The position numbers were made by a program, and so were the translations under genes. 64,000 nt of DNA from Ramlibacter terrae. GTDB lineage: Bacteria > Pseudomonadota > Gammaproteobacteria > Burkholderiales > Burkholderiaceae_C. The notes beneath the pieces are model-generated. The model saw nothing but the letters and a program-made list of their open reading frames with translations, did no database searches and was not told the origin of the DNA. The stretch's first letter is position 1; each line of letters starts with the position of its first letter. The stretch spans positions 1,860,001-1,924,000 of the forward strand of contig CP053418.1 of NCBI GenBank assembly GCA_013127575.1. The letters are read 5' to 3'. Shown piece after piece: positions 1 through 64,000 of this stretch.

Positions 1-128
1 AGGTCGGCCAGCAGCGTGATCGAAGCTTCGGTCTCGAACACGTCGACCGCTGGCACCACGTGCTGCTGTTGCTGTTGTGGCTGTTGCTGCTGTCGCGGCG
101 ACGCGGGCCGCGCGATGGCGTCGTCCAT
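1..128 (-). CDS. Hsp20 family small heat-shock protein (5' part only)
   Basis: Only the first 42 codons are in the window; the gene runs off the left edge. The start ATG (126-128) has a strong ribosome site, GGAG preceded by AGGAG, 8-17 bases upstream. The N-terminus is unusual: a glutamine/proline tract (residues 13-22, QQQQPQQQQQ) and then PAVDVFETEASITLLADL, which matches the first beta-strand of an alpha-crystallin domain. It starts 19 bases after the stop of the complete Hsp20 gene on the same strand, so the pair is probably one heat-shock operon. ATP-independent holdase in the cytoplasm is the family role. The Q-rich tail is seen directly; its role is unknown. Confidence 0.75.
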   Translation of the reverse strand, partial: MDDAIARPASPRQQQQPQQQQQHVVPAVDVFETEASITLLAD

Positions 129-147
129 GGCGTTCACTCCTTTCTCC

Positions 148-591
148 TCAATGCACTTCGATGCGGCGGGGCAGCGACGAGGCGCGCTTGGCGATGCTGA
201 TGCGCAGCACACCGTCGCGGTAGCTCGCTTCCACTTGCGCCGGGTCGGCGTCTTCGGGCAGGCTGACCACGCGGCGGAAGCGGCCCGCGTAGCGCTCGTT
301 GGCATACACGCTGGTGCGTTCGCCGGGCTGCGGCAGGTCGGCCTTGCGCTCGCCGGCGATGGCCAGCACGCCGCGGTCGATCGTGATGTCCAGGCTCGCG
401 GGGTCCAGCCCCGGCGCCAGCGCCATCACTTCGATCGAGCCGGCCGTCGTCCCGACGTTGAGCACCGGGAAGCCGCTGGCGGTGGAGCGGATGCTGGCGT
501 TGCCCGCGCCGCCGAACACCGGGTCGAGCAGGCCCTGCATGCGGTTGAGTTCGGTGAAAAGGTCCGTGGAGGACCGGAACATGGGAATCAT
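148..591 (-). CDS. Hsp20/alpha-crystallin small heat-shock protein
   Basis: 147-residue protein of normal Hsp20 length. The N-terminal arm (about residues 1-40, MIPMFRSSTDLFTELNRMQ) is followed by an alpha-crystallin domain with the family signatures LAPGLDPASLDI, VLAIAGERK and the A-x-x-x-x-G-V-L-like YRDGVLRISI near the end; the C-terminus RRIEVH resembles the IxI/V tail used in oligomer assembly. AGGAG lies 8 bases before the ATG. No frame breaks. Family role is binding of unfolding proteins in the cytoplasm. It is the first gene of a two-gene Hsp20 unit. No heat-shock (sigma-32) promoter could be recognised in the 39 bases upstream. Confidence 0.9.
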   Translation of the reverse strand: MIPMFRSSTDLFTELNRMQGLLDPVFGGAGNASIRSTASGFPVLNVGTTAGSIEVMALAPGLDPASLDITIDRGVLAIAGERKADLPQPGERTSVYANERYAGRFRRVVSLPEDADPAQVEASYRDGVLRISIAKRASSLPRRIEVH

Positions 592-630
592 GTGCGTTCT
601 CCTTGTCAGTTGCCCCCCGGCGTTCCCGAA

Positions 631-1420
631 TTAGGGTCGGCCGCGGGCGCTTTCAGGGGTGGCCCAACGGGCCAGCAGCACGGGAATGGAGGAGGCCAGC
701 AGGCCGGCGCCGGAGGCTGTCAGAAGCCCCAGCACCACCTTGCGGAAGGTGAGTTCGCTGATCCCGACGTACAGCCGCGCGCCGAGCACCGCCGGCACCA
801 GCATGGCCGGCGCCACCACCGCGAACAGCGGCAGCATCGAGCGTTCCACCAGGCCGGTGGCGAGATAACCCACGAAGGTGATGGAGAGCATCGCCAGGTT
901 GAAGTTCTGGATCACGGCGCGCTGGCGGTCCTTCTCGTAGCCGCGCAGCGTGCACCACAGCGTCGGCGCCACGCCGGTCGATCCGCCGAGCCCGCCCATC
1001 ACCCCGCCGACACTGCCGGCCACCGCGTCGGCGATGTGGCCGCCACGCGTGATGCGCGGCAACTGCGCCGCAAAGAACATCAGGGGGCACGCGATGACCA
1101 GCACCAGGCCGAGCACCGCCTTGAACATGGGTACGTCGAGCCGCGGCAGCAGGTACAGCCCGAGGGGCAGGCCTGCCAGCCCGCCGGCCGGGAACGGCAG
1201 CAAGGTCTGCGCGTGCCAGCCCCGGCGCACGGTGAAGGCCGACATCACCTGCCCGGTCAGCGCGCCGAACACGGCCAGCACCGCGGCGAGCTGCGGGTCG
1301 AGGACCCAGGCCCACATCGCGATCGCCGTCATGCTGAAGCCGAAGCCGGACAGCCCCCGGACGAAGCCGGCGACGGCGGCGCCGATGACGATGATGGCCG
1401 GGTGTTCCAGTTTCTGTCAT
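631..1420 (-). CDS. TauE/SafE-family membrane permease
   Basis: Polytopic membrane protein with the TauE/SafE pattern: a first helix PAIIVIGAAVAGFVRGLSGF, a mid-protein GSVGGVMGGLGGSTGVAPTL loop (the conserved GG-G-x-x-G segment) and about 8 hydrophobic segments, total near 260 residues. The family exports sulfite, sulfoacetate and other small sulfur or organic anions; the substrate here is unknown. The segment from 1332 downward is clean. The first helix lies upstream of the only in-frame ATG (1332), so the true start is further up; ATG at 1418-1420, MTE..LEHPA, fits if a small indel near 1411 is assumed. That ATG lies in the terminal ATGACA of a palindromic repeat. Confidence 0.75.
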
Positions 1421-1489
1421 CCCGGCTCGACCCGGGATCCGTGGTGGTGTGGCGGCAGTCGTGGATCGCGGCGCGAGGCCGCGATGACA
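1415..1489. repeat. Palindromic intergenic repeat, family A (copy 1)
   Basis: Composite element bounded by TGTCAT and ATGACA. It contains two back-to-back hairpins: CCCGGctcgaCCCGGG-like on the left and GCGGCGCGAGGCCGC-like on the right, separated by a short variable spacer. It fills the gap between the TauE-type gene and the 3' end of gcvP; its outer ATG may be the TauE start. Related copies occur at 4395, 8023, 22274 and 52360. Confidence 0.8.
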
Positions 1490-1492
1490 AGT

Positions 1493-4384
<2,892 letters not shown>

Positions 4385-4863: not shown

Positions 4864-5993
4864 TTAGCCGCGGTGATAGCGATTGGGGACGAAGGGCATG
4901 GCGGCCACTTCCATGGGCACGCGCTTGCCGCGCACGAGCGCGTGCACCCGCGTGCCGAGCGCCGCGTGCTCCGGCGCGACGTAGCCCATGGCCACGGGCT
5001 TGTCGATCGAGGGGCCGAGCAGGCCGCTGGTGACTTCGCCGATGCGCGCGCCTTGCGCGTCCTGCAGTTCGGTGTGTTCGCGCACCGGCACGCGCTCCAG
5101 CGCCACCAGGCCCACGCGCTTGCGCGGCAGCGGCTCGGCGCCTTGCAGCTGCGCCAGCACGCGTTCGGCGCCCGGAAAGCCGCCGGCGCGCTCGCCGCCG
5201 GTGCGCCGCACCTTCTGGATCGCCCAGTTCAGGGCGGCTTCCACCGGCGTGGTCGTGGTATCGATGTCGTTGCCGTACAGGCACAGGCCCGCTTCGAGCC
5301 GGAGCGAATTGCGGGCGCCGAGTCCGATGGGCTTCACCTCCGGCTGCGCGAGCAATTCGCGCGCCAGCGCTTCGGCCGATTCGCCCGGCACCGAGATCTC
5401 GAAACCGTCTTCGCCGGTGTAGCCGCTGCGCGTGATGTAGAGGTCGGCGCCTTGCCACGCGAAAGCCTTGCCGGTCATGAACACGAGCTGCTCGACGCCG
5501 GGCACCCGGGCGCTTCAACGCGTCCACCGCCTGCGGCCCCTGCAGCGCGAGCAGGCCGCGCTCCGGCATCGGGACGACCGGCAGCGGCCGCCGATCTTCG
5601 CCTGCATGTGCGCGATGTCGCCCGCCTTGCAGGCGCCGTTGACGATCACGAACAGGTGGTCGCCGCGATTGACGAACATCAGGTCGTCGATGATCGTGCC
5701 TTCGCCGGTGAGCAGCAGCCCGTAGCGTTGCCTGTCGACGCCGACGCCGATCACGTCCACCGGCACCAGCGACTCGAAGGCGGCGGCGGCATCCGGGCCC
5801 ACCAGCCGCAGCTGGCCCATGTGCGAGACGTCGAACAGGCCGGCGGCGCTTCGGGTGTGGAGGTGTTCGGCCATCAAGCCCGCCGGGTACTGCACGGGCA
5901 TGCTGTAGCCGGCAAACGGAACCATGCGCGCGCCGAGCTCCGGTGCAGGGCGTGCAGCGGCGTTTTCAGTAGCTCTTCTCGAGGTGCGGACAC
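4864..5993 (-). CDS. gcvT: Aminomethyltransferase, T-protein (frame broken by indels)
   Basis: The protein is recognisable across three frames: [10 protein letters not shown] / [19 protein letters not shown]...FDVSHMGQ...[10 protein letters not shown] / [18 protein letters not shown] / [11 protein letters not shown]...[12 protein letters not shown]...FVPNRYHRG. Summed length is about 377 residues, normal for GcvT. Breaks are at about 5942 (CACCGGAG for expected CACCTGGAG), 5575 (TGCCGGTC for TGCCAGGTC) and 5505-5515 (two CCGG sites). The GTG at 5993 is chosen as start because it gives [12 protein letters not shown] and has GGAG 5 bases upstream. T-protein transfers the one-carbon unit to tetrahydrofolate and releases ammonia. 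It is the first gene behind the glycine riboswitch. The breaks are probably sequencing errors. Confidence 0.9.
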
Positions 5994-6053
5994 GCGGACT
6001 CCAACAGGCTTTCGAACCATCGTACACACGATGGATGGGCCCGTGCTGTCCTC

Positions 6054-6228
6054 GTTACCTGAGAGATTCACCCGTTGCGCGGGCTTGCTCCTTCGGTGGA
6101 CGGCTGCTCATCCGCAGCCGCCTCTCTCCAGCAAGGTGACGCCGCGCGATGGCGGCGTTTGCCAGTCCCCGGTACCTGAGCGTTCGATTCGCCTTCGGTG
6201 GTTCTCGGAGAACTCTCTCTGGCGCGCG
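6054..6228 (-). promoter_or_regulatory. Tandem glycine riboswitch upstream of gcvT
   Basis: Read on the minus strand, two aptamer-like modules follow each other. Aptamer 1 (about 6228-6170) runs from CCAGAGAGAG through CCGAAGGCGAA to GCTCAGGTACC; aptamer 2 (about 6130-6054) runs from GGAGAGAGGCGG through CCGAAGGAGCAAGC to CTCTCAGGTAAC. The CCGAAGG core and the terminal CTCAGG are the conserved glycine-aptamer bases. The leader ends about 60 bases before the gcvT GTG, consistent with control of translation or early termination. Glycine binding activating gcv expression is established for the class; the ON direction here is inferred from the downstream genes. Confidence 0.9.
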
Positions 6229-6239
6229 GATTGTAGTCG

Positions 6240-7515
6240 CTACTTCGCGTACACCGGTCGCGCAGCGCCAGCGACAGCTGGGGCACGTAGGTGATCACCA
6301 TCAGGCAGGCCGGGATCACCAGCACGAAAGGCACCAGGTCCTTGATGATGCGGTCCAGCGATATTCGCGCCACCGTGCAGGCCGCGAACAGGTTCACGCC
6401 GAACGGCGGCGTGATCATGCCCAGCGCCGGGTTCACCACCATCACGAGCCCGAAGTGCACCGGATCGATGCCGAAGTGCATCGCCACCGGCGCCAGGATC
6501 GGCGCCAGCACGATGATGGCGGCGCTGGTCTCGATGAACATGCCGATGATGAAGAGCGCGGCATTCACGCCCAGCAGGAACATCGCCGGGCTTTGAAGCA
6601 CCGCCTCGAGCCAGCGTCCGATCGCGTCGGGCACGCCGGCGCGCGTGATCAGGAAGGCGAACAGGCCCGCGTTAGCGATGATGAACATGATCACCGCCGA
6701 CGAGATCACCGACTTCTTCAGCACGGCGTAGAGGTCGCGGACGCTGATCTCGCGGTAGATCACGACGCCGACCACCAGTGCATAGAACACGGCGACGGCG
6801 GAAGCTTCGGTCGGCGTGAAGACGCCTCCGTAGATGCCGCCCAGGATGATGACGGGCATCAGCAGCGCCCAGCCCGCCTGCCGGTGGCCTTGCCGAAGGG
6901 AAGGCGGCCGTCGCCGTCGTTCTTGCCCCAGCCCTTCCACTTGCACCAGATCCAGACGAACAGCATCAGCGCGCCGCTGATGAAGAGTCCCGGGCCGAAG
7001 CCGGCGATGAACAGTTCGCCGATCGAGACCTCGGCGCTCACGCCGTACAGGATCATGGGGATCGAAGGCGGGATGATCACGCCCAGTTCCGCGCTCGTGG
7101 CTTGCAGCGCCGCCGCGTACGAGGTCGGATAGCCGTGCTTGATCAGCGCCGGGATCAGGATCGCCCCGATGGCGAAGGTGGTGGCGACCGAGGAGCCCGA
7201 CACCGCGGCGAAGATCATGCAGGTCAGCACGCAGGTCATGGGCAGGCCGCCCTGCACGCCGCCGACGATGCTCTTGGCGAACTCCACCAGGCGGCGCGAG
7301 ATGCCGCCGGTTTCCATCAGGTTACCGGCCGGGATGAAGAACGGAATGGCCGCCAGCGGAAACTTGTTGATCGAGTTGAACATCTCCTTGACGGAGATCA
7401 GCATGTGCGCGTTGCTGGCACGGATGCCGAGGATGGAAGCCAAGCCGATGGACACCGCCACCGAGATGCTGAGCGCGAAGCACAGCACCATCGTTGAAAT
7501 CATGACAGTGGTCAT
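6240..7515 (-). CDS. dctM: TRAP transporter large permease DctM (two indels)
   Basis: Starting MTTVMISTMVLCFALSISV, about 12 hydrophobic segments and the DctM motifs IPFFIPAGNLMETGGISRR, SAELGVIIPPSIPMILYG and MITPPFGVNLF. Two breaks: near 6880 (ACCGGCAGG for ACCTGGCAGG) and near 6257 (GACCGGTG for GACCTGGTG). With both repaired, the protein ends LRDLVYAK at TAG 6240-6242 and is about 425 residues, the family length. Without the repair the frame runs through the riboswitch. The start overlaps the dctQ stop by 4 bases (ATGA), indicating translational coupling. It forms the sodium-driven pore that imports the DctP-bound carboxylate-type solute. Confidence 0.9.
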
Positions 7516-8131: not shown

Positions 8132-9100
8132 TTATTTCACCGCGCGGATCTTCTCGATCTCGGCCTTGCCGAACTGCTTCTCGAACTCGGCGTTGACCGG
8201 GGCCAGCGCCTTAACGAACGCCGACTTGTCGAGCGTGTCGACCACCGTCATGCCCTTGGCACGCAGGTCGGCCACGCCCTTGGCGTCGTCCTCGTCCACG
8301 CGGGCGCGGTTGACCTTGGCCCCTTCCTTGGCGGCTTCGGGAAAGCCGTCTTGTCGGCGGCCGACAGCTTGTCGAAGGCGGCCTTGTTCATCACGAAGAT
8401 GCAGGGCGAGTACACGTGGCCGGTCAGCGACAGGTGCTTTTGCACTGGTCGAACTTGGCGGAGATGATCACCGACAGCGGGTTCTCCGGCCGTCGACCGT
8501 GCCCTGCTGCAGGGCGGTGAACACTTCGGGGAAAGCCATGGGCGTCGTGATGATGCCGAAGCCCTTGTAGGCGGCGATGTGCACCGGGTTCTCCATGGTG
8601 CGCATCTTCAGGCCCTTGAGGTCTTCCGGCTTCTGGACCGAGCGCTTGCTGTTGGTCATGTGGCGGAAGCCGTTCTCGGCCCGGAGCCAGCGCCTTGAAG
8701 CCCTTGCTGTCGAACTTGGTCAGCAGGTCTGGCCGATCGGGCCGTCGAGCACGGCGCGGGCATGGGCCTTGTCGCGGAACAGGAAGGGCACGTCGAGGAT
8801 CTTGGTCTCGGGCACGAAGTTGGGCACCGGGCCGCTGGACGAGAAGGCCAGTTCCGGGTGCCGAGCTGCACCGCCTCGATCGACTCGCGTTCGCCGCCGA
8901 GCGAACCGTTGTAGAAGGTCTGGACCTTGTAGCGGCCGGCGGTGCGCTTCTCGACTTCGCGGGCGAACACGTCGATCGCCACGCCCCTGGTGCGAGTTCT
9001 GCGCCGTGGAGATGCTGATCTTCATCGTGGTCTGCGCCTGCGCGACCGAGCTGGCGAGGAAGCCCGCGGCGAGCAGGGCGTAGAGAGGGCTGAACTTCAT
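8132..9100 (-). CDS. dctP: TRAP transporter substrate-binding protein DctP (many indels)
   Basis: Signal peptide MKFSPLYALLAAGFLASSVAQAQ at the start, then DctP segments scattered over the three frames: TTMKISISTAQNSH / VAIDVFAREVEKRTAGRYKVQTFYNGSLGGERE / FSSSGPVPNFVPETKILDVPFLF / MTNSKRSVQKPEDLKGLKMR / VHIAAYKGFGIITTPMAFPEVFTALQQGTVDG / HLSLTGHVYSPCIFVMNKAAFD / and a tail ending IRAVK. At least seven indels (about 8345, 8446, 8494, 8688, 8729, 8861, 9000), every one at an expected CCAGG or CCTGG. Corrected length is about 325 residues. Periplasmic, binds the solute and delivers it to DctQM. No ligand can be assigned. The densest break cluster in the window. Confidence 0.88.
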
Positions 9101-9214
9101 GGAATGGGTCTCCGGATGTTGGGGTAAGGCAAAGCCTGCCGGATGATGCGGCTGGGCCGGCACCGGCGCTACGGGAGTTCTACCGAGGGCGGCGGTCAGC
9201 CGCCCGCAAGCTTG

Positions 9215-10913
9215 CTACATGTTGGTGTAGTTGGGCCCGCCGCCGCCTTCGGGCGTGATCCAGACGATGTTCTGGGTCGGGTCCTTGATGTCGCAGGTCT
9301 TGCAGTGCACGCAGTTCTGCGCGTTGATCTGCAGCCGCTGGCCCTCGGGCGTGTCGGCCGGCACGAACTCGTAGACGCCCGCCGGGCAGTAGCGCGCCTC
9401 GGGGCCCGCGTACTTCGCCAGGTTGACCTGCACCGGCACGCTGGCGTCGCGCAGCGTCAGGTGCGACGGCTGGTGCTCTTCGTGGTTGGTGTTGGAGATG
9501 AACACCGAGGAGAGCCGGTCGAAGGTCAGCTTGCCATCGGGCTTCGGGTAGACGATCGGCTTGCACTCCGCCGCGGGCTTGAGGTAGCTGTGGTCCGGCT
9601 TGTCGCGGTGCAGCGTCCGGGGCACGTTGCCCTTCAGCAGGAACTGCTCGATGCCGTTCATGAAGGTCGCGGGCAGGAGGCCCTTCTTGAACCAGTCTTG
9701 AAGTTGCGCGACTTGTTCAGTTCGGCGTGCAGCCAGCTCTTCTCGAAGGCTTCCGGGTACGCGGTCAGTTCGTCGTGCTGGCGGCCGGCATGGATGGCGT
9801 CGAAGGCCGCGCGCGCTGCCAGCATGCCGGTCTTGATCGCGGCGTGGCTGCCCTTGATGCGGCTCACGTTCAGGTAGCCCGCGTCGCAGCCCACCAACGC
9901 GCCGCCGGGGAAGATCGTCTTGGGCAGGCTCAGCAGGCCGCCGGCCGTGATGGCGCGGGCGCCGTACGAAAGGCGCTTGCCCGGCTTGATGCCCTTGCTC
10001 TCGTCGCCTTCGAGGTACCAGCGGATGTTGCGGTGGGTCTTCCAGCGCTGCAGTTCCTCGAAGGGGCTCAGGTACGGGTTGGCATAGTCGAGCCCGGTGA
10101 TGAAGCCGAGCGAGACCGGGTTGCCTTCCATGTGGTACAGGAAGGCGCCGCCGTAGGTGTCGTTCTCCATCGGCCAGCCGGCCGTGTGCAGCACGAAGCC
10201 GGGCTCGTGCCGCTTGGGATCGATCTCCCACACTTCCTTCACGCCGATGCCGTAGGTCTGCGGGTCGCGGCCTTCGTCGAGCTTGAAGCGCGCGATGAGT
10301 TGCTTGCCCGGTGGCCGCGCGAGCCTTCGGCGAACACCGTGTACTTCGCGTGCAGCTCCATGCCGAGCTGGAAGTTCTCGGTGGGCTGGCCGTCCTTGCC
10401 CACGCCCATGTTGCCGGTGGCCACGCCCCGGACGGAGCCGTTCTCGTTGTAGAGCACTTCGGCCGCCGGGAAGCCCGGGAAGATCTCCACCCCGAGGCCT
10501 TCGGCCTGCTGCGCCAGCCAGCGCGTGACGTTGGCCAGGCTCACGATGTAGTTGCCGTGGTTCTGGAAGTTCTCGGGCAGGAAGAAATCCGGCACGCGCA
10601 TGCCGCCGTTCTCGCTCAGGAACACCATTGCGTCGCCGGTCACCGGCTGGTTCAGCGGCGCGCCCTTTTCCTTCCAGTCGGGGATCAGTTCGGACAGCGC
10701 CCGCGGGTCCATGATGGCGCCCGAGAGGATGTGCGCGCCGGGCTCCGAACCCTTCTCCAGCACCACCACCGACAGCTCGCGCCCTTCGGCCTGCGCGAGC
10801 TGTTTCAGGTGGATCGCGGTGGCAGGCCGGCGGGGCCGCCGCCCACCACCACCACGTCGTATTCCATCGCTTCGCGCGGTCCGAACTGGGCCGGGGATGT
10901 CTTCTTGCGTCAT
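9215..10913 (-). CDS. Electron transfer flavoprotein-ubiquinone oxidoreductase (indels)
   Basis: About 565 residues after joining frames. The FAD-binding N-terminus ([11 protein letters not shown] in the shifted frame, then [20 protein letters not shown]) leads to the central domain ([39 protein letters not shown]) and the C-terminal 4Fe-4S motif [19 protein letters not shown]. The enzyme takes electrons from ETF and reduces membrane ubiquinone, linking acyl-CoA and amino-acid dehydrogenases to respiration. Breaks near 10826 (CCTGCC for CCTGGCC), 10306 (CACCGGGC for CACCTGGGC) and 9702 (TTCAAGAC for TTCCAGGAC) all hit CCWGG; one more lies near 10890. It is divergent from the SDR gene, 86 bases away. 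Start ATG 10913. Confidence 0.92.
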
Positions 10914-12675: not shown

Positions 12676-13090
12676 AACTCGCACTCCCCACCCAGAAGAA
12701 GCTCGTCCACACCATGGTGGTCCCGATCCGCTGGGGCGACATGGACGCGATGGGCCACGTCAACAACGCGGTGTACTTCCGCTACCGGAGACGGCCCGCC
12801 TCGACTGGTTCGGCGTCATCGGCTGCCAGGTCAACCCGCAGGGCGAAGGCCCGCTGATCGTCAACGCGTTCTGCAACTTCCACAAGCAGCTCGAGTATCC
12901 AGGCGACGCGGTGGTGAAGATGTACGTGAGCGATCCCGGCCGCAGCAGCTTCGAGAGCTGGGCCACGATCAGCCGCGGCGACGATCCCGATACGGTGTAC
13001 GCGTCGGGCGGCGCGACGACGGTGTGGGTCGACTTCCCCAAGCAGAAATCGGCGCCGCTGCCGGACTGGTTCCGCGCGTTGCTGGAGTAA
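12672..13090 (+). CDS. Acyl-CoA thioesterase, 4HBT hot-dog family (one indel)
   Basis: About 139 residues. The 4-hydroxybenzoyl-CoA thioesterase signature RWGDMDAMGHVNNAVYFRY at residues 17-37 contains the catalytic aspartate (GDMD). The frame breaks at about 12787 (TACCGGAGACG for expected TACCTGGAGACG) and continues ETARLDWFGVIGCQV...VWVDFPKQKSAPLPDWFRALLE. Hydrolyses acyl-CoA; chain preference unknown. Translationally coupled to the EamA permease gene. Confidence 0.9.
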
Positions 13091-19494: not shown

Positions 19495-20131
19495 ATGCCC
19501 GGACCCAAGACCAGATGGCCGCGCGCGCGGCCCAGAACTCGAGGACGGTTTCTACGTCAACCTTGGCATCGGCATCCCGACGCTGGTGGCCAACTTCACC
19601 GGCGACAAGGAGGTGTGGCTGCAGTCCGAGAACGGCATGCTGGGCATCGGCCCCTTCCCGAAGGAAGACGAGGTCGACGCCGACCTGATCAACGCCGGCA
19701 AGCAGACCGTCACCACCATCAAGGGCAGCTCGATCTTCGGCAGCCACGACAGCTTCGCCATGATCCGCGGCGGCAAGATCAACCTCTCGATCCTCGGCGC
19801 GATGCAGGTCAGCGAGAAGGGCGACCTGGCCAACTGGATGATCCCCGGCAAGATGGTCAAGGGCATGGGCGGCGCGATGGACCTCGTGGCCGGCGTGCCG
19901 CGCGTGATCGTCCTGATGGAGCACGTCGCGAAGAAGAAGGACGGCACCGAGGACATGAAGATCCTGCCGCAGTGCACGCTGCCGCTCACGGGCGTGGGCG
20001 TGGTCGACCGCGTGATCACCGACCCGGGCGTGTTCGACGTGACGCCGCAGGGCCTGAAGGTGGTCGAACTGGCGCCCGAAGTCACCTTCGACTTCGTGCA
20101 GTCGAAGACGGGCGTCACGCTGCAGCGTTGA
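19495..20131 (+). CDS. scoB: 3-oxoacid CoA-transferase subunit B (two indels)
   Basis: About 212 residues. After repair it reads [31 protein letters not shown]. The catalytic glutamate motif [12 protein letters not shown] is present near residue 47, and the subunit ends [14 protein letters not shown]. Both breaks are close to the start: about 19500 (ATGCCCGGACC for ATGCCCTGGACC) and 19541 (GCCCAGAACTC for GCCCAGGAACTC). GGAG lies upstream of ATG 19495. Forms the active heteromer with ScoA. Confidence 0.94.
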
Positions 20132-21504
20132 ACGCCGCCGGCGCACTCCGCGAACTCTGGCAGCTGGCGCGGCTGCCGGGGAGGCGCTGGAGTGCGTCGC
20201 GCTCACCGGGCAGGACCCGGTCCATCCCTCCTCCTTTGCCGTCGGCGCCGCCGCGCAGGCCGGCATCGCCGCGGCGGCGCTGGCTGCGTGCGAGCTCGGG
20301 CATGCCCGCGGCGCCCCGCGCCAGCAGGTGGCCGTCGACATCGCGCATGCCGCCGCCGAGTGCCTCTGCTGGTTCTCCCTCGACGGCCGCGTGCCCGAAC
20401 TGTGGGACGCCTTCTCCGGCCTCTACCGCACCCGCGATGGGTGGGTGCGCGTGCACGCCAACTTCGCGCACCACCGCGAAGGGGCGTTGCGTCTGCTGGG
20501 CCTGGACCCGGTGACGGCCACGCGGCAGGACGCGGAGCAGGCGATGCTGCGGTGGGAGGCGGTGGCGTTCGAATCCGCGGCGGCCGAACGCGGACTCGTC
20601 GCCGCGGCGGTGCGCAGCTTCGCCGCGTGGGACGCGACGGAACAAGGCCGCGCGATCGCCGCGCAGCCGCTGCTGGCGATCGAGCGCATCGGCGACGCCG
20701 ACCCGCTGCCGCTGCCCGCGCTGGACGCCACGCAGCGACCGCTGGAGGGCGTGCGGGTGCTGGACCTCACGCGCATCCTCGCCGGACCGGTCGGCGGGCG
20801 CGCCCCGGCCGCTTACGGCGCCGACGTGATGCTGCTGAACGCGCCGCACCTGCCCAACATCGAAGCCATCGCCGAAACCAGCCGCGGCAAGCGTTCGGCG
20901 CTGCTGGACCTGCGCAGCGGCGAGGGCGGCGCCGCGATGGCGACGCTGCTGCAGGACAGCCATGTGTTCCTGCAGGGCTACCGGCCGGGCGGGTTGCAGG
21001 GCCGGGCTTCGGCCCGCAAGAGGTGGCTGCGCAACGCCCGGGCATCGTGTACGTCTCGCTCAGCGCCTATGGCACGCAAGGGCCGTGGCGCGAACGGCGC
21101 GGCTTCGATTCGCTGGTGCAATCCGCCACCGGCTTCAACCTCGCCGAAGCGGAAGCGGCCGGCACGCCCGGCAAGCCGCGTGCCCTGCCGATGCAGATCC
21201 TCGACCAAGGCACGGGTTACCTGATCGCCTTCGCGACGGCCGCCGCGCTGCGCCGCCAGCGGCTGGAAGGCGGCAGCTGGCACGTGCAGGTGTCGCTGGC
21301 GCAGACCGGCGCGTGGCTGCGCCACCGGGCCGCGTCGAAGGCGGATTCGGTGTCGCGGCGCCGCCGGTGGACCCTTGGCTCGAGACCACCGAAAGCGGCT
21401 TCGGCGCCTTGCGCGCCGTGCGCCACAGCGCGCAGCTCAGCCGCACCCCGGCCGCGTGGATACTGCCTTCCATGCCGCCGGGCAGTTCTCCGACACACTG
21501 GTAA
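20128..21504 (+). CDS. CaiB/BaiF-family CoA transferase with extra N-terminal half (indels)
   Basis: About 460 residues starting at TTG 20128, overlapping the scoB stop (TTGA). The canonical CaiB opening [40 protein letters not shown] appears only at about residue 200. The preceding 200 residues contain [20 protein letters not shown] and [20 protein letters not shown], segments that look like a later part of the CaiB fold. Breaks at about 20180, 21003 and 21328 are CCTGG sites with a base lost, and 20806 looks like CCTGG changed to CCCGG. Probably a CoA transferase; substrates unknown. Possibly co-transcribed with scoAB. Confidence 0.82.
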
Positions 21505-31364: not shown

Positions 31365-31513
31365 GAGCGCCTGCGGCGGGCTTGTACGCAGAGGACGCAA
31401 AGGATTCGCAGAGGACGCAGAAAAGTCAAAGGAAACTTCCAAGGTTTTCGGTTTTCTTCCGCGACTTCTGCGTAACCTTTGCGTCCTCTGCGTACAGCCC
31501 GCCGCAGGCGCTC
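31365..31513. repeat. Large near-perfect inverted repeat after dnaE2
   Basis: The left arm begins GAGCGCCTGCGGCGGGCTTG at 31365 and continues TACGCAGAGGACGCAAAGG; the right arm ends at 31513 and is its complement except for one extra T on the left. The matched stem is about 38 bp and extends imperfectly for another 15-17 bp. The loop carries a second inner GCAGAGGACGCAG unit. It starts 8 bases after the repaired dnaE2 stop. Likely roles are bidirectional terminator or dispersed mobile repeat. Confidence 0.85.
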
Positions 31514-37101: not shown

Positions 37102-37126
37102 CATCGCAGCTACGAAGGAGACACGC

Positions 37127-38000
37127 ATGAAGAAGATCGGCATGGTGGGCATCGGCATGATGGGCCACGGCATCGCGAGCAACGTCCTCAAGCACGGCCA
37201 CGCGCTGGCCGTGTTCGAGCACCCCGGCAACCAGCCGCTCGACGCGCTCAAGGCCGCCGGCGCGGTCGGCTACCGGAGCACGAAGGAACTCGCCGCGCAG
37301 TCCGACGTGGTGATCCTGGTGCTGACCGGCTCGCCCCAGTGGAGGCCGTGCTCACCGGCGCCGGCGGCGTGCTGGAAGGCCTGCGCCCCGGCAGCGTCGT
37401 GATCGACTGCTCCACGGCGATCCCGTCGTCGAGCATCCGCATGGCGCAGGCCGTGGAAAAGGCGGGCAGCCGCTTCCTCGACGCGCCCATGACGCGCACG
37501 CCCAAGGAAGCCGCCGAAGGCCGCCTGAACCTGCTGGTGGGCGGCGACGCCGCGGTGCTGGAAGAATGCCGCCCGCTGCTGCGCTGCTTCGCCGAGAACA
37601 TCACGCACATGGGGCCGGTGGGCGCGGGCCACAGCATGAAGCTGCTGCACAACTACGTGTCGCTCGGCATGGTCACGCTGCTGTCCGAAGCGGCCGCCTG
37701 CGCCGAGCGCAACGGCGTGGCGGCCGACGCCTTCGTCGACGTGCTGGCCAAGGGCGGCGGCGGCGGCATCGCGCTGGAGCGCATCAAGCCGTACGTGCTG
37801 GCGCGCGAGACCTCGGGGCTGCGCTTCTCGATCGCCAATGCGCGCAAGGACTGGACTACTACAACGCCATGGCCACCGACGCCGGCGCCGCGCGCGACGT
37901 CGCGGCGGCCGTGCTGGCCACGCTCGAAGGCGCGCTGGCCAAGGGCGGCAACGACGCGCTGGTGCCGGAACTGGTGACGCTGCTCGGCAGCGGAAAGTAG
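37127..38000 (+). CDS. 3-hydroxyisobutyrate dehydrogenase-family oxidoreductase (two indels)
   Basis: About 291 residues. The Rossmann motif IGMVGIGMMGHGIASNVLKH opens the protein, the substrate-binding motif FLDAPMTRTPKEAAEGRLNL comes mid-protein and the catalytic lysine sits in GAGHSMKLLHNYVSLG. Beta-hydroxyacid dehydrogenase family, NAD(P)-dependent; possible substrates are hydroxyisobutyrate, tartronate semialdehyde or an aromatic-degradation intermediate. Breaks at about 37338 (CCAGTGG for CCAGGTGG) and 37851 (GACTGGAC for GACCTGGAC). GGAG upstream of ATG 37127. Convergent with the MarR gene. Confidence 0.9.
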
Positions 38001-45047: not shown

Positions 45048-46378
45048 TCAGCCTCCCGGCGCCACGCGCCACACCGTGTTGCCGACGTCGTCGGCCACCA
45101 GCAGCGCGCCCTTGCCGTCGAGCGCCACGCCGACCGGGCGCCCTTGCGCCTTTCCGCCCGCGCTGAGGAAGCCGCCGAGGAACTCCACCGGCGGACCCGA
45201 GGGCTTGCCGTTGGCGAACGGCACGTAGACCACGTTGTAGCCCGAGAGGTCCTTGCGGTTCCACGAGCCGTGCTGGCCGATGAAGGCGCCGGCGGCGTAG
45301 TTGGCCGGCATGCGCGCATCCGAGAACACCAGCCCCAGCGGCGCGACGTGCGCGCCGAGCCCGAAGTCGGGCGCGATCGCCTTGGCGACCATCTGCGGAT
45401 TGGCCGGCTTCACGCGCGCGTCGACGTTCTTGCCCCAGTAGCTCGGGGCCAGCCGTAGAACGCGCCGTCCTTCACAGAGGTGAGGTAGTCCGGGACAGGT
45501 CGTTGCCCAGCTCGTCGCGCTCGTTCACCACGGTCCACAGCGTCTTGCTCTGCGGCTCCCAGCCCGGGCCGTTCGGGTTGCGCAGTCCGCTCGCGAACAG
45601 GCGCTTGTTGCCGGTGGCCCGGTCCACTTCCCAGATCGCCGCGCGGCCTTCCTCGGCCGCCATGCCGTTGTCGCCGATGTTGCTGTTGGAGCCGACCGTG
45701 GCGTACAGCTTGCTGCCGTCGGCGCTGGCGATGATGTTCTTGGTCCAGTGGTGGTTGGCGCCCGAGGGCAGGTCGGTCACCTTCACCGGCGCGGCGGAGA
45801 TGCTGGTCTGGCCCGCCACGGTAGGGCACCTTCACGATGGCGTCGGCATTGGCGATGAACAGCTCGTTGCCGACCAGCGCCATGCCGAACGGCGAGGTCA
45901 GGCCGCTCATGAACACCTGCTTGACCTCGGCGACGCCATCGCCGTCGGCGTCGCGCAGCAGCGTGATGCGGTCGGCGCTCGGCACGCCCGCGCCGGCGCG
46001 CTTCATCACCACCTCCATCGCCTTGCCCTTCACGCCCTCGCTGTGCACGTTCTTCGAGCCCTCCTTGGGCTTCGGCGCGTTGCTCTCGGCGACCAGCACG
46101 TCGCCATTGGGGAGCGTGTAGACCCAGCGCGGATGCTCCGGGCCGTTCGCCAGCGCGGTCACCTTGAAGCCCGCCGGCGCGCGCGGCATGGCGCCCTGCG
46201 GCCAGCCTTCGGCGGGCGCGATGTTCACGGTGGGCAGCAGGCGCTTGGCGGGCGGGGGCAACTGCGGGCTGGGGCCGACGCCGGGCAGGGCGCCCCGGGC
46301 GATGGCGGAGCCGATGGAGGCCGCGAGCACCGTGACGGCGAGGCAGGCGGGGAGAAGGGGACGCTGGCGTTGGTTCAT
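45048..46378 (-). CDS. PQQ-dependent sorbosone-type sugar dehydrogenase (indels)
   Basis: About 445 residues with a signal peptide ([19 protein letters not shown]). Beta-propeller motifs: [139 protein letters not shown]. The [11 protein letters not shown] and QHGSWNR segments match sorbosone dehydrogenases. Breaks at about 45489 (CCTGTCCC for CCTGGTCCC), 45826 and 45450. Periplasmic oxidation of a sugar or aldonolactone is inferred. Convergent with the response regulator gene. Confidence 0.87.
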
Positions 46379-46442
46379 CCCGGCAGTTTGGTGGGCGCGC
46401 CGCGTCGCCACTTGTAGGCGGACGCCGCTTCTGCGAGCCTGC

Positions 46443-48982
46443 TCAGCCACCCATCCACTGCGGCAGCAGCCGCACCAGCGCCATGCCTGCGATGCCCTGC
46501 AGGGTGACGTAGTGCCACATCACCGCCGTATTGTCGAGCGTGGCGCGCGCGTCCTCGCGCAGCGCCCCGCTCCAGGACCGCGCCAGCAGGTAGAGCCCCA
46601 TCGCCACCGGGATCAGCGCGTGGAAGCCTTGCCAGGCGAGCATCGCCGCCACGGTGGCGCCCCCGGGCGTTGTCGGTCGGCGCGAGGCCGGCCCGTGACT
46701 GTGCGATGAAATCCAGAACGGTTGCGCCCAGCATGCAGCCCAGCGCCAGCACCACCGCCAGGCGCAGCAGGCGCTGCCCGCCACGGCCGAGCCGCCACGT
46801 GGCGAAGGCCAGCAGCACGGACCCGGCGAGGAGCAGCGCGCCGGCCGCCCAGCCGCCGCCCGCCAGCGCCGTGCCCGGCGGCGGGCAGACGTCGAGCTTC
46901 ATCGAGACGTGCACGTGCGCGAAGCCGAGCGAAGCGAAGATGGTGGCGTCCACGGCCGCCGGGACGATCATGGCCCACCACGAATGCGAGCGGATCCCCG
47001 GGAGAGCGCGGGCACGTCGACGCCGTCGCCAATGGTTGCGGTGGGGCGCGGCGGCGGCTGGTCGGAGCGCCACAGCCAATGCATGATCGCCGCGATCGAG
47101 ATCGCGCCGGCGACGAAGGCGGGCACCACCAGGGCCACCGTCAGCAAGAGGAAGAAGCCCGCCGTGCCGGCGGCGGCCACGAACGGCGACCAGCCGTCGC
47201 CCGGCAGCCGCAGCAGGTGGCGGATGTCGCCGCGCACCGGGCTCGTCACGAGCGTCTCGCGCCCGCCGAACACGGTGCCGGGCAGCCAGTGCTGTCCGGC
47301 CTCGACTTCGGCGGCGAGCGTCGGCCGGTCCCACAGCGGCGTGCGCGACGCCACCTGCGGGATGCTGCGGGTGGCGTACTCGCCCTGCGGCAGCCACTCC
47401 AGCGAGTCCGCGTTCCGGGGTTGTCCTGCGGCCGCTTGGCGCGCAGCATCGTGCGCACCAGGTCCACGAAGCACAGCGCGACGCCCGCGGCGAACACGAA
47501 CGCACCGGCGGTGGAGAGCGCGTTCAAGGCGTTCCAGCCCAGGTCGCCGGCATAGGTCACCACGCGCCGCGGCATGCCCAGCAGGCCGGTGATGTGCATC
47601 GGGAAGAAGGCGAGGTTGAAGCCCGCGAACATCAGCCCGAAGCTCCAGCGGCCCGCGCGCTCCGGGAGCCGGTGGCCGTTGAAGACCGGCGTCCAGTGGT
47701 AGATGCCGGCGAACAGCGGGAACACCATGCCGCCGATCAGCACGTAGTGCAGGTGGGCGACGATGAAGTAGCTGTCGTGCACCTGCCAGTCGAAGGGCAG
47801 CACGGCCACCATCACGCCGGTGAGCCCGCCCAGCACGAAGATGAAGTGGAAGCCCAGCAGGAACAGCGACGGCGTGGTCAGGCGCACCTTGCCTTTCCAG
47901 AACGTGGCGATCCACGAGAACACCTGCACGCCGCTCGGGATGGCGACGGCGAAGCTGGCGGCGGACGTGACGTGCAACGCCAGCGGGCCCAGGCCGGCGG
48001 TGAACATGTGGTGCATCCACAGCAGGAAGCTGATCGCGCCGACGCCCACCAGCGCCCACACGATCGCGCGGTAGCCGACCAGTTTCGTCTGCGCCGCGAC
48101 GGGCACCATCATCGACACCATGCCGGCGGCGGGCAGGAAGATGATGTAGACCTCGGGGTGGCCGAAGAACCAGAACAGGTGCTGCCACAGCAGCGGGTCG
48201 CCGCCGCGCGCCGGGATGAAGAACGGCCAGTCGAACGCGCGCTCCAGCTCCAGCAGGATGGTGCCGGCGATGATCGCGGGGAAGGCGAACACGATCATCA
48301 GCGCGGTGACGAGCATCGCCCACGCGAACAGCGGCATCTTCATCAGGCTCATGCCCGGCGCCCGGGTGAAGAGGATGCCGATGATCAGCTCGATGGCGCC
48401 CGCGATCGCCGAGATCTCGATGAAGCCGATGCCCAGCAGCCACCAGTCGGCGCCGATGCCGGGCGAGTGTTCCTTGCCCGTGAGCGGCGGGTACATGAAC
48501 CAGCCGCCGTCGGGCGAAGCGCCGAAGAACACGGTGCAGAAGAAGGCGAGCCCGCCGATCGCATAGGCCCAGAACGCGTAGGCCGACAGGCGCGGGAAGG
48601 GCAGGTCGCGCGCGCCCAGCATGCCCGGCAGCAGCCACACGGCCACCGCTTCGACCACCGGCACGGCGAACAGGAACATCATCACCGTGCCGTGCATGGT
48701 GAAGAGCTGGTTGTACGTGGCCGCGCTCACCAGGTTGGCGTCGGGCACCGCCAGCTGCGCGCGCATGATCAGCGCCAGCACGCCGGCCAGCACGAAGAAC
48801 AGCAGCGCGGTGGCGGGGTAGTAGATGCCGATGCGGCTGTTGTTGACCGCGGTGAGCGCGCGCCAGCCGGTCGGCGCTTCCCGTGCGCGCTGGAGGGCTT
48901 CGAACTCGCCTTCCGGTCGGGGGAGGGAGTTGGGAAGGCGCACTTCGTCGTCCCCGCGAAGGCGGGGGCCCACTGCGCCCAT
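46443..48982 (-). CDS. Cytochrome c oxidase subunit I-III fusion (indels)
   Basis: About 845 residues. Subunit I core: MHGTVMMFLFAVPVVEAVAV, WFFGHPEVYIIFLPAAGMVS (Cu-B histidine and Glu), LWMHHMFTAGLG, SYFIVAHLHYVLIGG (heme a histidines). After about residue 540 it continues as a subunit III-like part: WSPFVAAAGTAGFFLLLTVA, SHSWWAMIVPAAVDATIFAS, NTAVMWHYVTLQGIAGMALV. The fused CtaDE form is known in some Proteobacteria. Breaks at about 47420 (CCCCGGAAC for CCCCTGGAAC), 46999 and 46667. Start ATG 48982 lies in a small palindrome, so the true start may be downstream (before RLPNSLPRPEGEF). Couples O2 reduction to proton pumping. Confidence 0.9.
48946..48972. repeat. Small palindrome, family B (copy 1)
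   Basis: CGTCGTCCCCGCGAAGGCGGGGG-type hairpin overlapping the 5' end of the oxidase subunit I reading frame, where it would encode VGPRLRGDDE. Related copies at 56118 and 60952. Confidence 0.6.
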
Positions 48983-56152: not shown

Positions 56153-57119
56153 TTAGAACGGCGAGTTCGGGAAGTAGAAGTCCTTCGCGTTCGCCTTCGT
56201 GATCAGCACCGACGGGACGATGTTGTTCGCGGGCAGCTTCTGGCCCTTCAGGCGCGCCTCGCCGGTCATCTTGATCGCGTCGTACATGAACTTGGGCGAG
56301 TACGAGACGTTGGCTGGATCAGCGGGTCGCTGCCGTCCATCAGCGTCTTGATCGCGCCCTTGGCGCCGGCGCCGCCGAACACCAGCTTGATGTCCTTGCG
56401 CTTGGCCTGCTCGATGGCCTTGAGCACGCCCACCGCCATGTCGTCGTCGGCCGCCCAGATCGCGTCGATCTCCTTGAAGCGCGTCAGGTAGTCCTGCGTC
56501 ACCTTGAAGGCGTCGTCGCGGTTCCAGTTGCCGTGCTTGGCGTCCAGCAGCTTGATGTTGGGGTGGTTCTTCATCACCCCGTTGAACGCGTCCATGCGCT
56601 CGTTGTCGATGGTGGTCGGGATGCCGCGCAGCGCCACGATGTTGCCCTTGCCGTTCAGCGCCTTGGCGATGTACTCCGCGGGGATCCTGCCGAAGGCGGT
56701 GTTGTCGCCGGACACGTACGCGTCCTGCGCGCTGGTGTCGGTCAGGCCGCGGTCGACCACCGTCACGTAGATGCCCTTGGCCTTCACCTGCGCGACCGGC
56801 TTGGTGAGCGCGGCCGATTCGAACGGGAACACGACCAGCGAAGTGATCTTGTTGACCGTCACCAGGTCCTGCAGCTGGTTGGCCTGCTCCGAAGCGTTGG
56901 CGGCCGTCTTGACGATCACCGGATGTTCGGGTTGGCCTTCTCCAGGTCCTTTTTGGCCTCGTTGGCCCAGTACACGGCGCCGGCCATGAAGCTGTGGGTG
57001 GCGGCGGGCATGGCCACGCCCAGCACCTCCTTCTTGGCCTGTGCCATCGCGGGCACGGCGGCCAGCATCGCTGCCGTCGCCGCGGCGCCCAGTACCAGCC
57101 GGCGGGGGAATTTCGTCAT
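56153..57119 (-). CDS. Sugar ABC transporter substrate-binding protein (two indels)
   Basis: About 322 residues, RbsB-like. Signal [21 protein letters not shown], then [60 protein letters not shown] and [20 protein letters not shown], ending FYFPNSPF. Breaks at about 56929 (ATCCGGTG for ATCCAGGTG) and 56310 (ATCCAGCC for ATCCAGGCC). Periplasmic capture of a monosaccharide or polyol for the downstream permease and ATPase. Start ATG 57119. Confidence 0.92.
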
Positions 57120-57181
57120 GGTTGTCTCCTTGGAGTTGCGAAAGAAGCGGCCTCGCGGCTGCGGTGGGGAAAGCGGTGGGT

Positions 57182-58180: not shown

Positions 58181-59639
<1,459 letters not shown>

Positions 59640-59643: not shown

Positions 59644-60840
59644 GGCCGCGCCCCCTGCAGCCGCAGCGACTCCTGCATGGCCAGCGCGCCCGCGCCGACC
59701 AGCCCGGCCTGCGCGCCCAGCGGCGTGTACTGGATCTCCGGTGCCGCGTGGAAAGCGCCAGCGAGCGGTGGTACACGCTCTGGCGGACCGAGGCGAGGAA
59801 CAGCGGCCCGATCTGCGTCACCCCGCCGCCGATGAACACGTGCGACGGGTTGAAGAAGTTGACCACCGAGGCCAGCATCTGTCCGATCAGGCTGCCGGCG
59901 CGCTGGATGATCGCGTTGGCCGCGGCGTCGCCGTTGCGGCTGGCCGGCCGACGTCCACTGCGCTGAGGCGGCCGTTGGCCTTGAGGAGTTCGGCCAGCGC
60001 GCGGCTCTCGCCGGCCTCGGCCGCTTCGGTCGCCAGGCGCGTGATCGCGGGCGCCGCCGCCATCGCCTCGACGCAGCCGAAGTTGCCGCAGTGGCAGCGC
60101 GGCCCGGCCTGGTCGACGCAGATGTGGCCGACGTCGCCGGCCGAGCCGTTGGCGCCGCGGTACACCTCGCCATGGCAGACGATGCCGCAGCCGATGCCGG
60201 TGCCGACCTTGATCACCATGAAGTTCTGCAGGCTGCGCTGCAGGCGCCAGAGCTCGCCCAGCGCCATCAGGTTGACGTCGTTGTCGACGAACACCGGCGC
60301 GGTGAACGCTTCGCCGAGGTAGTCGCGGATCGAGAAGCTGTCCCACTCGGGCATCAGCGGCGGGTTCACCAGTTGCGCGCTGGCGAAGTCCACCGGGCCG
60401 GGGACGCCCATGCCGATGCCGATCACCTTCTTCGGCGAAATGCCGTTGGCCGCCAGCAGTTCGCGCATGACGTCGCGCACCCGCGCCAGCACCACGCCGG
60501 GGCCGGCGCGCACGTCCGCGTCTTCGGCATGGCGCGCGACCGGGCCGAGGTCGGGCCGCAGAACGGCGACCTCGAGGCTGGTGGCGCCGAGGTCCACGCC
60601 GATGACGACGCCGAGGCCTTGCGCGAGCTGGAGGGTTTCGGGGCGGCGGCCGCCGGAAGAGGCTTGCAGGCCGGTCTCTTCGAGCAGGCCTTGTTCGATC
60701 AAGCCGGCGGCGAGCGCGTTGGCCTTGCTGCGGGAACAGTCGAGCCGGCCGGCCAGCGCATGGCGCGACGTGCCCGCGGACCAGAAGATGGTCCGGAGCA
60801 TGTCCATTTCGGCGGCCGAAAGCTGGTCCCAGCGCTGCAC
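59640..60840 (-). CDS. ROK-family transcriptional regulator (two indels)
   Basis: About 401 residues from GTG 60840. N-terminal winged helix ([40 protein letters not shown]) followed by a ROK sugar-kinase-like domain: [59 protein letters not shown], and the zinc motif [15 protein letters not shown]. Breaks at about 59947 and 59755, both CCGG for an expected CCWGG. It is the first gene of the sugar operon, so probably autoregulatory and derepressed by the transported sugar. A dyad lies about 90 bases upstream. Confidence 0.9.
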
Positions 60841-60942: not shown

Positions 60943-60953
60943 TAATCTCCCCG

Positions 60954-61454: not shown

Positions 61455-61476
61455 CCGTCGATTGTGACCAACCCCG

Positions 61477-63224
61477 TCACGCGTCCACGATCTCCGGCTT
61501 GCCGGCGCGCGTGCGCAGGCTCATGGCCACGTCGGCGCTGTAGTCGCGCGACAGCACGGTGCTCACCTGCACCCAGTCGCCGCGCGCCTCCGAGGGCGTG
61601 AGCGTCAGCAGCATGTAGCCGCGCTGGCTGGTTTCGGCGTAGCGCAGGTCGGGCACCATCTTCGGGAAGGCGTCCTCCAGCACCGCCGAGGAGATCAGCG
61701 GGAAGAAGCGCTCGAAGCCCGGCGAGCTGACGGACGCGGTGGCGAATTCCACGCCGACGATCTCGCCCGAGGCCACCGTCAGGTCGCTGGCCCAGGCGTT
61801 GTGGGTGTCGCCGGCCGGGGACACCAGGTTCCTGTTCAGCGACTTCGCCGTCGCCAGCACCGATTCGCGCGCGGCCGGGTAGCCATCCCACGCGTCGAGG
61901 TTGTACGGCACGCGCTCCTGCTGCAGCAGTTCGACTGGCTCTCGCTGCGCAGGTCCTCCGGCGTCGCCTGTGCCAGCAGGAACTCGCTCAGGGACTTCAG
62001 GGTGAAGGCCGCCGCGATGCTCAGCGGGATCAGCATGCGCGCCATCAGCACCTGCTGGCCCAGCACCTGCCACGTGGCCTTGGACCGGGTGAGCTGGTCG
62101 GTCAGCCGGGCGGACTGCTCCACGCCGAGCAGCTGGCGGTCGGTGCCCGGCTCTGGCCATCCGGTACTGGTCCATCGTTTGCTGCTGGTCGCGGCCGATG
62201 ATGCGCGTGTCCAGCACGTGCAGCGACGCGAGCTTGCCGAAGTCGAAGCTGCGGTAGATCTTCAGCGGGTTCGCCGGGTCCGGCACGCGGATCGGCAGCC
62301 ACTCCTGGTAGGCTGGACCGCGGCCGCACGCCGGGCCGCGAAGCTGCCGTCGTCCTCGGGATCGTGCTCGAGCGCGCCTTCGCGCCGGTGTTGTCGGCCG
62401 GTCGTGGTCGTCCCACACCGCGATCATCGGCACGGTCGCATGCAGCGCCCGCAGGTCGGGGTCGGTCTTGTACTGCGCGTGGCGCTTGCGGTAGTCGTCC
62501 AGCGTCTTGATCACGTGGTCGGGCTTGGAGACGCGGTCGATCGCGATCGCCAGCTGCGAGGCGTAGCCGAGCACGCCGAACTCGTAGATGTAGTCGCCCG
62601 GTGCAGCGCGAAGTCGACGTCGTCGCGCCGCGCGGCGTGCGCGTACGCGTTGAAGTAGCCGGCCGGGAAGTTGGCGCACGAGAAGACCGCGAAGCGCAGC
62701 TTCTGCACGTCGTTGGCGGGCAGGGTGCGCGTGCGGCCGACGTTGGACACCTCGCCGGCGAAACGAAACCGGTAGTAGTACGTCGTGCCGGGCTTCAGGT
62801 CGGGCACGTCGACCTTGACGGTGTAGTCCTGGTCGGGGCCGGTGCTCACCGTGCCGTTGGCCACGGGCACGCCGAAGTTCTGGTCGAGCGCCATCTCCCA
62901 TTGCAGGGAGAGCACGCCCGGTGCCGATGCCGTGACATGGGTCCACAGCATCACGCGGTCCTGCAGCGGGTCGCCGCTGGCCACGCCCATGCGGAACGCG
63001 CCGTCCGCGTTCTCGGCCGCCGTGACGAGGTCGTTGTCGCCGCCCGCGCCGGCCTCTTCGTCGCCGCCCCCACCGCCGCCGCACGCCGTGAGGCTGACGC
63101 CGGAGCCGATGCCCATCGCCATCAGGATGGCGCCGCGGATCAGGGATCGGCGCGAAACGTTCGCGTGCCGCTGCGCGGTGGCGTTGGCGATCTGGGCGAG
63201 GGAATCGGGCGGGGAAAGGGACAT
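61477..63224 (-). CDS. PhoD-family alkaline phosphatase/phosphodiesterase, Tat lipoprotein (indels)
   Basis: About 585 residues. A Tat-type signal SRRSLIRGAILMAMGIGSGV ends in LTACGGGG, so it may be a lipoprotein. PhoD domains: MGVASGDPLQDRVMLWTHVT, LRFAVFSCANFPAGYFNAYA, HLGDYIYEFG (repaired; metal Asp), MIAVWDDHDLADN (metal site), ILDTRIIGRDQQQ-like HVLDTRIIGRDQQQTMDQ and NLVSPAGDTHNAWASDLTVA (metal histidine). Breaks at about 62597, 62405, 62310, 62155 and 61930 are CCWGG-type; others near 62375 and 62160 are not. Releases phosphate in the periplasm. Start ATG 63224, alternative 63260. Confidence 0.9.
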
Positions 63225-63368
63225 GCGGGCTTTCGGGTACTGCGGCGCCGGCGACGCCAAGGCTCAGCGATTGAACGGCAGAGGCTTGCGCCGCACGGTC
63301 AGCGCCGTGTCTGACACGTTGTGGGAGGCGACCTACACGCGTGGCGGGGCGGGATAATCCGCCCAACC

Positions 63369-64000
63369 ATGAAGCCGAACCTCGAAGCGCTGAAGAAGAC
63401 TTTCCGCGAAGGCCGCCGCGCCGAAGCCATCACCGCGTGCGAAGCCGCGCTGGCCGACCATCCGGCCGATCGCGAGCTCCAGCGCCTGTGCGCCAACATG
63501 CAGGCCATGGTGCGCAACCACGCCCGCGCGCTCGAACTCCTGCTGCAACTGCGCGACCCGGCGCGTGAAGATCCGGAGATCCTGTTCAACATCGCCACCT
63601 GCGAGCGCGAGCTGAACGATTTTCGTGCGGCGGCCGGCCACTTCAAGATCCTCACGGAGCGCCATCCGCAGGACGTCGGCGCCGGGCGGGCTGGGCCGAG
63701 AGCAGCTTCCAGCTCGGCGCTTTCGAGGACGCGCTCACCGGTTTCGGCCGCGCGATCCAGCTGGCGCCCGAACTCGCCCGCTTGCGCGTGCTGCGCGGCG
63801 ACGCGCTGCAGGCGGTGGGCAGGCTGCCGGACGCCGCGGCCGACTACCAGGCCGCGCTGAAGCTCGCGCCCAACGACGACGCCACGCTGAAGAAGGCCAC
63901 GCTGTGCATGCTGGAAGCGGGGCAGGGCGAGCAGGCGATCGCGTTGTGCAGGGAGATCCTGAAGGTCCGCCCCGACAGCCTGACGGCCAAGCTCGGCGCC
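63369..64000 (+). CDS. TPR-repeat protein (3' part outside window; one indel)
   Basis: At least 210 residues to the right edge. Tandem tetratricopeptide units: MKPNLEALKKTFREGRRAEA, RELQRLCANMQAMVRNHARA, EILFNIATCERELNDFRAAA, SSFQLGAFEDALTGFGRAIQ, VGRLPDAAADYQAALKLAPN and GEQAIALCREILKVRPDSLT. Frame break at about 63688 (GCCGGGCG for GCCTGGGCG). TPR proteins of this type often carry a C-terminal sulfotransferase or glycosyltransferase domain, which would lie outside. Function unknown. It is divergent from the PhoD gene with a 144-base gap. Confidence 0.8.

Follow-up and report, generated by a model that had tools for sequence, protein, structure and literature searches.

A 64,000-nucleotide stretch of the contig of Ramlibacter terrae H242T (bases 1,860,001-1,924,000; hereafter, the window) carries scattered frame breaks and, taken as a whole (positions 1-64000), is depleted of the motif CCWGG, that is, CCAGG or CCTGG. 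Have the genes of this stretch decayed, or has the sequence been misread? A first-pass annotation, made from the sequence alone, described frame breaks across about 35 genes, placed about 70 of some 85 indels at CCWGG and explained them by an unpolished long-read assembly of a genome methylated at this motif, rather than by gene decay. The present analysis bears this explanation out: the frame breaks are almost certainly nanopore consensus errors at methylated CCWGG and not mutations. The support comes from the sequencing platform, the enrichment of CCWGG at indels, the depletion of CCWGG along the contig, a locus encoding a methyltransferase, Vsr and a nuclease, an unaffected sister genome, and selection that is not relaxed in the broken genes.

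The complete genome of H242T (5,277,406 bases; 306x coverage) was published together with that of the sister species R. montanisoli B156T (G014 in our set of relatives), and both were assembled from MinION reads with Unicycler 0.4.7 (PMC9705899). In the main text of that paper, the account of the H242T genome names MinION and Unicycler alone, and the word 'polish' is absent; the methods given there are those of a nanopore assembly of native DNA, the kind of data in which consensus errors at Dcm motifs arise. Among the 5,653 genes reported for H242T, 2,807 are protein-coding (PMC9705899).

Indels at CCWGG in the window

Chunks of the window, 300 bases each, were aligned with MAFFT to at least three relatives of the same genus. 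This was achieved for 105 of the 213 chunks (31.5 kb; 81 chunks left of 31.4 kb and 24 to the right), and the other 108 were dropped because too few relatives were available. An indel was counted if it was unique to the window, at most 5 bases long and of a length not divisible by 3, whether in coding sequence or not. There were 55 such window-only indels, or 1.75/kb, compared with 0-0.68/kb when each of 15 relatives with at least 3 kb aligned was taken as the focal genome in the same count.

In 38 of the 55 cases (69%), one or more relatives had CCAGG or CCTGG no further than 4 bases from the indel; random columns drawn from these chunks gave a background of 10.1% (binomial p=1.6e-25). The coincidence of frame breaks with CCWGG that the first-pass annotation had described is thus real, and the enrichment check that it proposed, run here with the 4-base limit and random columns as the control, ranks CCWGG first among all strand-collapsed pentamers for nearness to window-only indels. 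The next-ranked pentamers, ACCTG, CTGGC, AGGTG and CAGGA (p from 4e-10 to 2e-5), can each overlap CCWGG. The motif adjoins indels in both halves of the window (31 of 46 on the left, 7 of 9 on the right) and of both types (33 of 46 deletions, 5 of 9 insertions). With the limit widened to 9 bases, the share rises to 44 of 55 (80%), and this independent count agrees with the earlier figure of about 70 in 85.

An earlier, partly overlapping run on 500-base chunks, 46 of 49 of which could be compared with enough relatives (23 kb), placed 31 of 49 indels at CCWGG, against a background of 11%. In the same run, CCSGG, GGWCC, GGSCC, GCWGC, GCSGC, CGWCG and CGSCG were all near background, the highest being GCSGC (12 of 49 vs 17%). 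The errors are thus concentrated at CCAGG and CCTGG over other motifs, the pattern expected of Dcm-motif consensus errors.

Of the example strings cited by the first-pass annotation, three occur at 12783, 37336 and 44917, and one lies on the opposite strand at 6252. Three of its example positions, 12787, 37338 and 59388, fall within aligned chunks, and all three are window-only indels. The motif is near the indel in 3 of 3 relatives at 12787 (a window-only gap within 12783-12793, plus strand), in 1 of 5 at 37338 and in 9 of 9 at 59388. The other three positions, 6257, 44921 and 33987, fall in chunks with too few relatives to be aligned. For the example at 33987, the nearest CCWGG lies at 33998, so that this coordinate is loose.

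The fate of individual sites can be followed at 67 positions where CCWGG is conserved in the relatives: in the window, 24 are intact, 16 contain an indel and 27 are substituted. When relatives were taken as focal in the same test, CCWGG was intact at 52 of 73 sites in G028, 45 of 55 in G014, 40 of 52 in G026 and 41 of 51 in G023, with 2 indels in each. These few control indels look like alignment artefacts: in the cases listed, the site reads CC-AGG or CC-TGG, the gap being a column that an insertion in the window had introduced. CCSGG is spared in the window, with 36 of 45 conserved sites intact. Of the 43 altered CCWGG sites, 9 have lost just the middle base, 8 have CCSGG in place of the motif and 7 have CGAGG; CGAGG replaces CCWGG in relatives too, and this outcome may be natural. 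None of the 43 reads CTWGG or CCWAG. Substitutions, with CCSGG among their commonest products, therefore hit CCWGG in the window as well, a point absent from the first-pass annotation.

Loss of CCWGG across the genome

The window contains 127 CCWGG sites (1.98/kb), compared with a mean of 169.75 in its own shuffles and with 5.4-7.6/kb in stretches of six relatives. The depletion extends along the contig. In a sample of 20 regions of 20 kb each (400 kb), CCWGG occurs at 2.10/kb, and every one of the 20 regions is low (1.5-3.3/kb). These 400 kb hold 839 CCAGG/CCTGG sites, where about 2,263 would be expected, and no other pentamer is as strongly depleted in comparison with the six pooled relatives. 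CCAGG/CCTGG is still the lowest by raw ratio when 11 relatives are used (0.37, the next being 0.55 among the pentamers listed). If the true density is about 5.8/kb, extrapolation gives some 19,000 CCWGG sites lost genome-wide.

The 11 relatives range from 3.52 CCWGG/kb (G016) to 9.38 (G064). The low count in G016 (L207-L210) possibly reflects natural avoidance or a milder form of the same artefact. The sister genome of R. montanisoli B156T, sequenced on the same platform and described in the same paper as H242T, shows no depletion (5.91/kb); a search of this genome with the H242T methyltransferase described below gave no match at E<=0.001, and no motif stands out in a ranking of its pentamers and hexamers (L028-L031, L077-L083).

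A Dcm-like methyltransferase locus

Outside the window, close to where the contig begins, a locus (G000:C1:5312-8188; L076) encodes a Dcm-like methyltransferase together with Vsr and an MvaI/BcnI-family nuclease. The methyltransferase is the only PF00145 match, and hence the only C5-cytosine methyltransferase, found in the genome by a profile search, which may overlook genes that errors have disrupted. With the same limit, the genome gave no match to PF01555, the N6/N4 methylase family. The enzyme scores above the cut-off of the NCBIfam dcm superfamily and aligns over its length to the solved cytosine methyltransferases 3lx6 and 3me5 (E ~1e-104), which we take to be Dcm of Shigella. By homology, it is predicted to be a C5-methyltransferase of the Dcm kind, able to mark CCWGG. 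The Vsr gene (frame 6670-7095, minus strand) lies directly downstream and overlaps the end of the methyltransferase gene. Vsr repairs the mismatches left by deamination of 5-methylcytosine (5mC) in CCWGG, and its presence is thus an independent pointer to 5mC at this motif.

Facing these two genes is the predicted nuclease (frame 5312-6646; PF15515, 129.5 bits, cut-off 25), and this match suggests that the locus is a type II restriction-modification system. The full-length alignment of the methyltransferase, the adjoining Vsr and the nuclease score above the Pfam cut-off liken the locus to systems that combine a Dcm-type C5-methyltransferase and Vsr with an MvaI/BcnI nuclease. Unlike that family, the H242T nuclease has an open frame of 444 amino acids, much longer than the Pfam domain (227), and a 315-residue part of it (L048) found no sequence match among solved structures at E=0.001 or E=10.

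Comparable loci occur elsewhere. Matches to PF15515 were found in 26 of 369 genomes of the class, 19 of them above the cut-off. Among 18 other PF15515 loci compared by tblastn, four (L219-L222) combine a methyltransferase and Vsr with a nuclease that shares 39-41% identity with that of H242T, and at L227 a methyltransferase fragment reaches into the stretch compared. The methyltransferases of G016 and G007 also adjoin Vsr (L052, L053), and a plasmid of Thauera humireducens carries all three annotations together.

For the methylase, the pattern of errors favours CCWGG over CCSGG as the target. MvaI is paired with an N4-cytosine methylase and is not blocked by Dcm methylation; in a system of the present kind, the long-form nuclease would differ from MvaI in that 5mC must stop it from cutting. 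We lean slightly towards the view that the footprint assigns a specificity to this uncharacterised locus, with the predicted Dcm-like methyltransferase, Vsr and long-form MvaI/BcnI-type nuclease marking CCWGG rather than CCSGG. CCWGG is absent from the assembled sequence of the locus, a possible reason for the intact frames of its genes.

Very probably, then, CCWGG in H242T carries C5 methylation of cytosine, set by the Dcm-like enzyme, which would be the modification half of a restriction-modification system completed by Vsr and the MvaI/BcnI-family nuclease. The nanopore current at 5mC in CCWGG would depart from the training data of the then-current basecaller, and a similar miscall would be made read after read: the middle base dropped or read as C or G, or a neighbouring base dropped. 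Because such a miscall recurs, high coverage could not outvote it. A genome published from MinION reads would then lack thousands of CCWGG sites, with genes that hold the motif thrown out of frame. The true genes in the window are probably intact.

Errors of this kind have been described before. According to Wick et al. (2019), about 70% of the consensus errors of default Oxford Nanopore (ONT) basecallers were in Dcm motifs, which they blame on models trained without Dcm methylation; methylation-aware Nanopolish often fixed only about 70-80% of the Dcm-motif errors (PMC6591954). The two cases agree in the errors falling in CCAGG/CCTGG (about 70% there, 38 of 55 window-only indels here) and in the use of native DNA with basecalling models naive to the methylated motif. 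They differ in that Wick et al. worked on Klebsiella, in which Dcm methylation was established and for which a reference existed, whereas here a soil betaproteobacterium is known from its assembly alone and the Dcm-like enzyme lies in an apparent restriction-modification locus. Chiou et al. (2023) reported modification-mediated systematic errors caused by modifications other than Dcm (PMC10687267). There, too, poor nanopore genomes resulted from modifications outside the basecaller training; their study, however, dealt with novel modification types and offered a correction method, and no such correction was applied here. Given these precedents, the present finding clearly adds one more case to an artefact already described. 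Among the titles and opening lines of abstracts listed in literature searches, none gives an account of this error in R. terrae, and an earlier report may still exist.

A great many of the gene breaks in the type-strain genome appear to be false, and gene counts, metabolic reconstructions and species comparisons built on this genome are misleading. The simple pentamer test reveals the cause; the worth of the result lies in curation, the biology itself being ordinary. The same depletion test could infer methylation motifs from other public nanopore-only genomes, from the assemblies alone.

Competing explanations and the genes affected

Several observations weigh against basecalling error at methylated CCWGG as a complete account. 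For 17 of the 55 window-only indels, no aligned relative has CCWGG within 4 bases; 6 of these lie within 9 bases of the motif, 3 are in homopolymers and 8 are unexplained, so that other sources of error, or a few real indels, must exist. After Markov correction, CCAGG is the lowest pentamer by a small margin (0.56, the next being 0.59). Relative G016, with a Dcm-like enzyme 63% identical to that of H242T, has 3.52 CCWGG/kb in the 80 kb sampled, the lowest of the 11 relatives, which makes some natural avoidance possible, although avoidance would not break frames. The sister B156T (large contig, 4,459,501 bases) also has fewer coding sequences (3,639) than genes (4,741; PMC9705899), despite normal CCWGG, so that false breaks in these assemblies need not all involve this motif. 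At 418.9 bits, the methyltransferase falls short of the cut-off of 710 set for PRK10458, a narrower model in NCBIfam, and the label 'Dcm-like' accordingly rests on the alignment. Both the methylation and its agent are inferred from the assembled sequence. Finally, the catalogue used here gives a CheckM completeness of 63.7% for the H242T genome, compared with the published 95.6% (PMC9705899), a gap for which we can only assume a difference in methods.

Real evolution against CCWGG, through restriction or through 5mC deamination, could contribute a share beside methylation-induced miscalling and is very improbable as the main cause. It would fit the cognate-looking restriction-modification locus in the genome and the fact that G016, with its related enzyme, has fewer CCWGG sites than the other 10 relatives sampled. 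Avoidance would be expected to proceed by frame-keeping substitutions, however, whereas 9 of the 67 conserved sites in the window lack nothing but the middle base, a loss that breaks the frame; and deamination of the inner 5mC would lead to CTWGG or CCWAG, an outcome seen at none of the altered sites. As the main cause, natural avoidance was rejected, given that relative G007, which has two Dcm-like enzymes, shows none (6.02 CCWGG/kb) and G016 perhaps some.

There is just as little to be said for ordinary nanopore indels, homopolymeric or random, falling by chance in G+C-rich motifs as the main cause, although they too may add a share. The 3 of 55 indels in homopolymers and the 8 others without explanation would suit them, as would the shortfall of coding sequences in the sister genome from the same platform. 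But chance does not account for the enrichment of CCWGG at indels while CCSGG, GGWCC, GCWGC and CGSCG stay near background, nor for a sister genome without CCWGG loss, and the motif test refutes this explanation as the main cause.

Gene decay bears on the genes themselves. Open reading frames (ORFs) of relatives were placed on the window; from 498 candidates, 49 passed a codon-position filter and 30 were kept without overlap (25.5 kb), some of which may be spurious antisense frames. Gaps of a length not divisible by 3 occur in 18 of the 30 ORFs in the window, compared with 6 in a control relative (43 gaps vs 9). The share of substitutions at third codon positions is 0.578 in the broken genes, 0.572 in the intact ones and 0.596 in the controls: the broken genes do not show the relaxed selection expected of genuine pseudogenes. 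Mass decay, with hundreds to thousands of real pseudogenes, is the least credible explanation of all, for although the indels are present in the deposited sequence and most of the placed ORFs are broken, the breaks cluster at one pentamer and spare CCSGG, the substitution pattern bears no sign of relaxed selection, and the breaks extend to genes of core metabolism, such as those for GcvT and ETF-QO, in an aerobe that grows in culture.

The gcvT gene (4867-6027, minus strand) is split over two frames, with the N-terminal part at 5515-6027 and the C-terminal part at 4864-5505, and has 4 gaps, compared with none in the control. The ETF-ubiquinone oxidoreductase-like gene (9218-10913, minus strand) likewise has 4 gaps vs none. 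Also broken on the minus strand are a gene at 8144-9125, encoding 349 amino acids in relative G028 (7 gaps of lengths not divisible by 3, vs none in the control); a gene at 45052-46485, encoding 483 amino acids in relative G022 (3 vs 1); a periplasmic binding protein gene (Peripla_BP_4) at 56156-57167 (3 vs 1); and a ROK-family gene at 59652-60840 (2 vs none). On the plus strand, a CoA-transferase family III gene at 20129-21488 (3 vs none) and the gene at 37089-37989, which holds the example at 37338 (2 vs none), are broken. The glycine dehydrogenase gene gcvP (1497-4384, minus strand) is intact in frame, with no gaps, compared with 2 in the control relative.

Three further features of the window were observed. 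Two tandem glycine riboswitch aptamers (6036-6228, minus strand) lie upstream of gcvT, on the same strand. Part of the periplasmic binding protein gene (56153-57000) is 89-95% identical in G011, G028, G007, G017, G020 and G004, compared with 80-85% in the flanking stretch, which reflects either strong conservation or recent exchange. At 31365-31500, there is a near-perfect palindromic repeat (fold z-score -13.8) that has no Rfam match at gathering scores; dozens of diverged copies are present in the genome (70 matches listed, on both strands and including the repeat itself), and copies occur in relatives.

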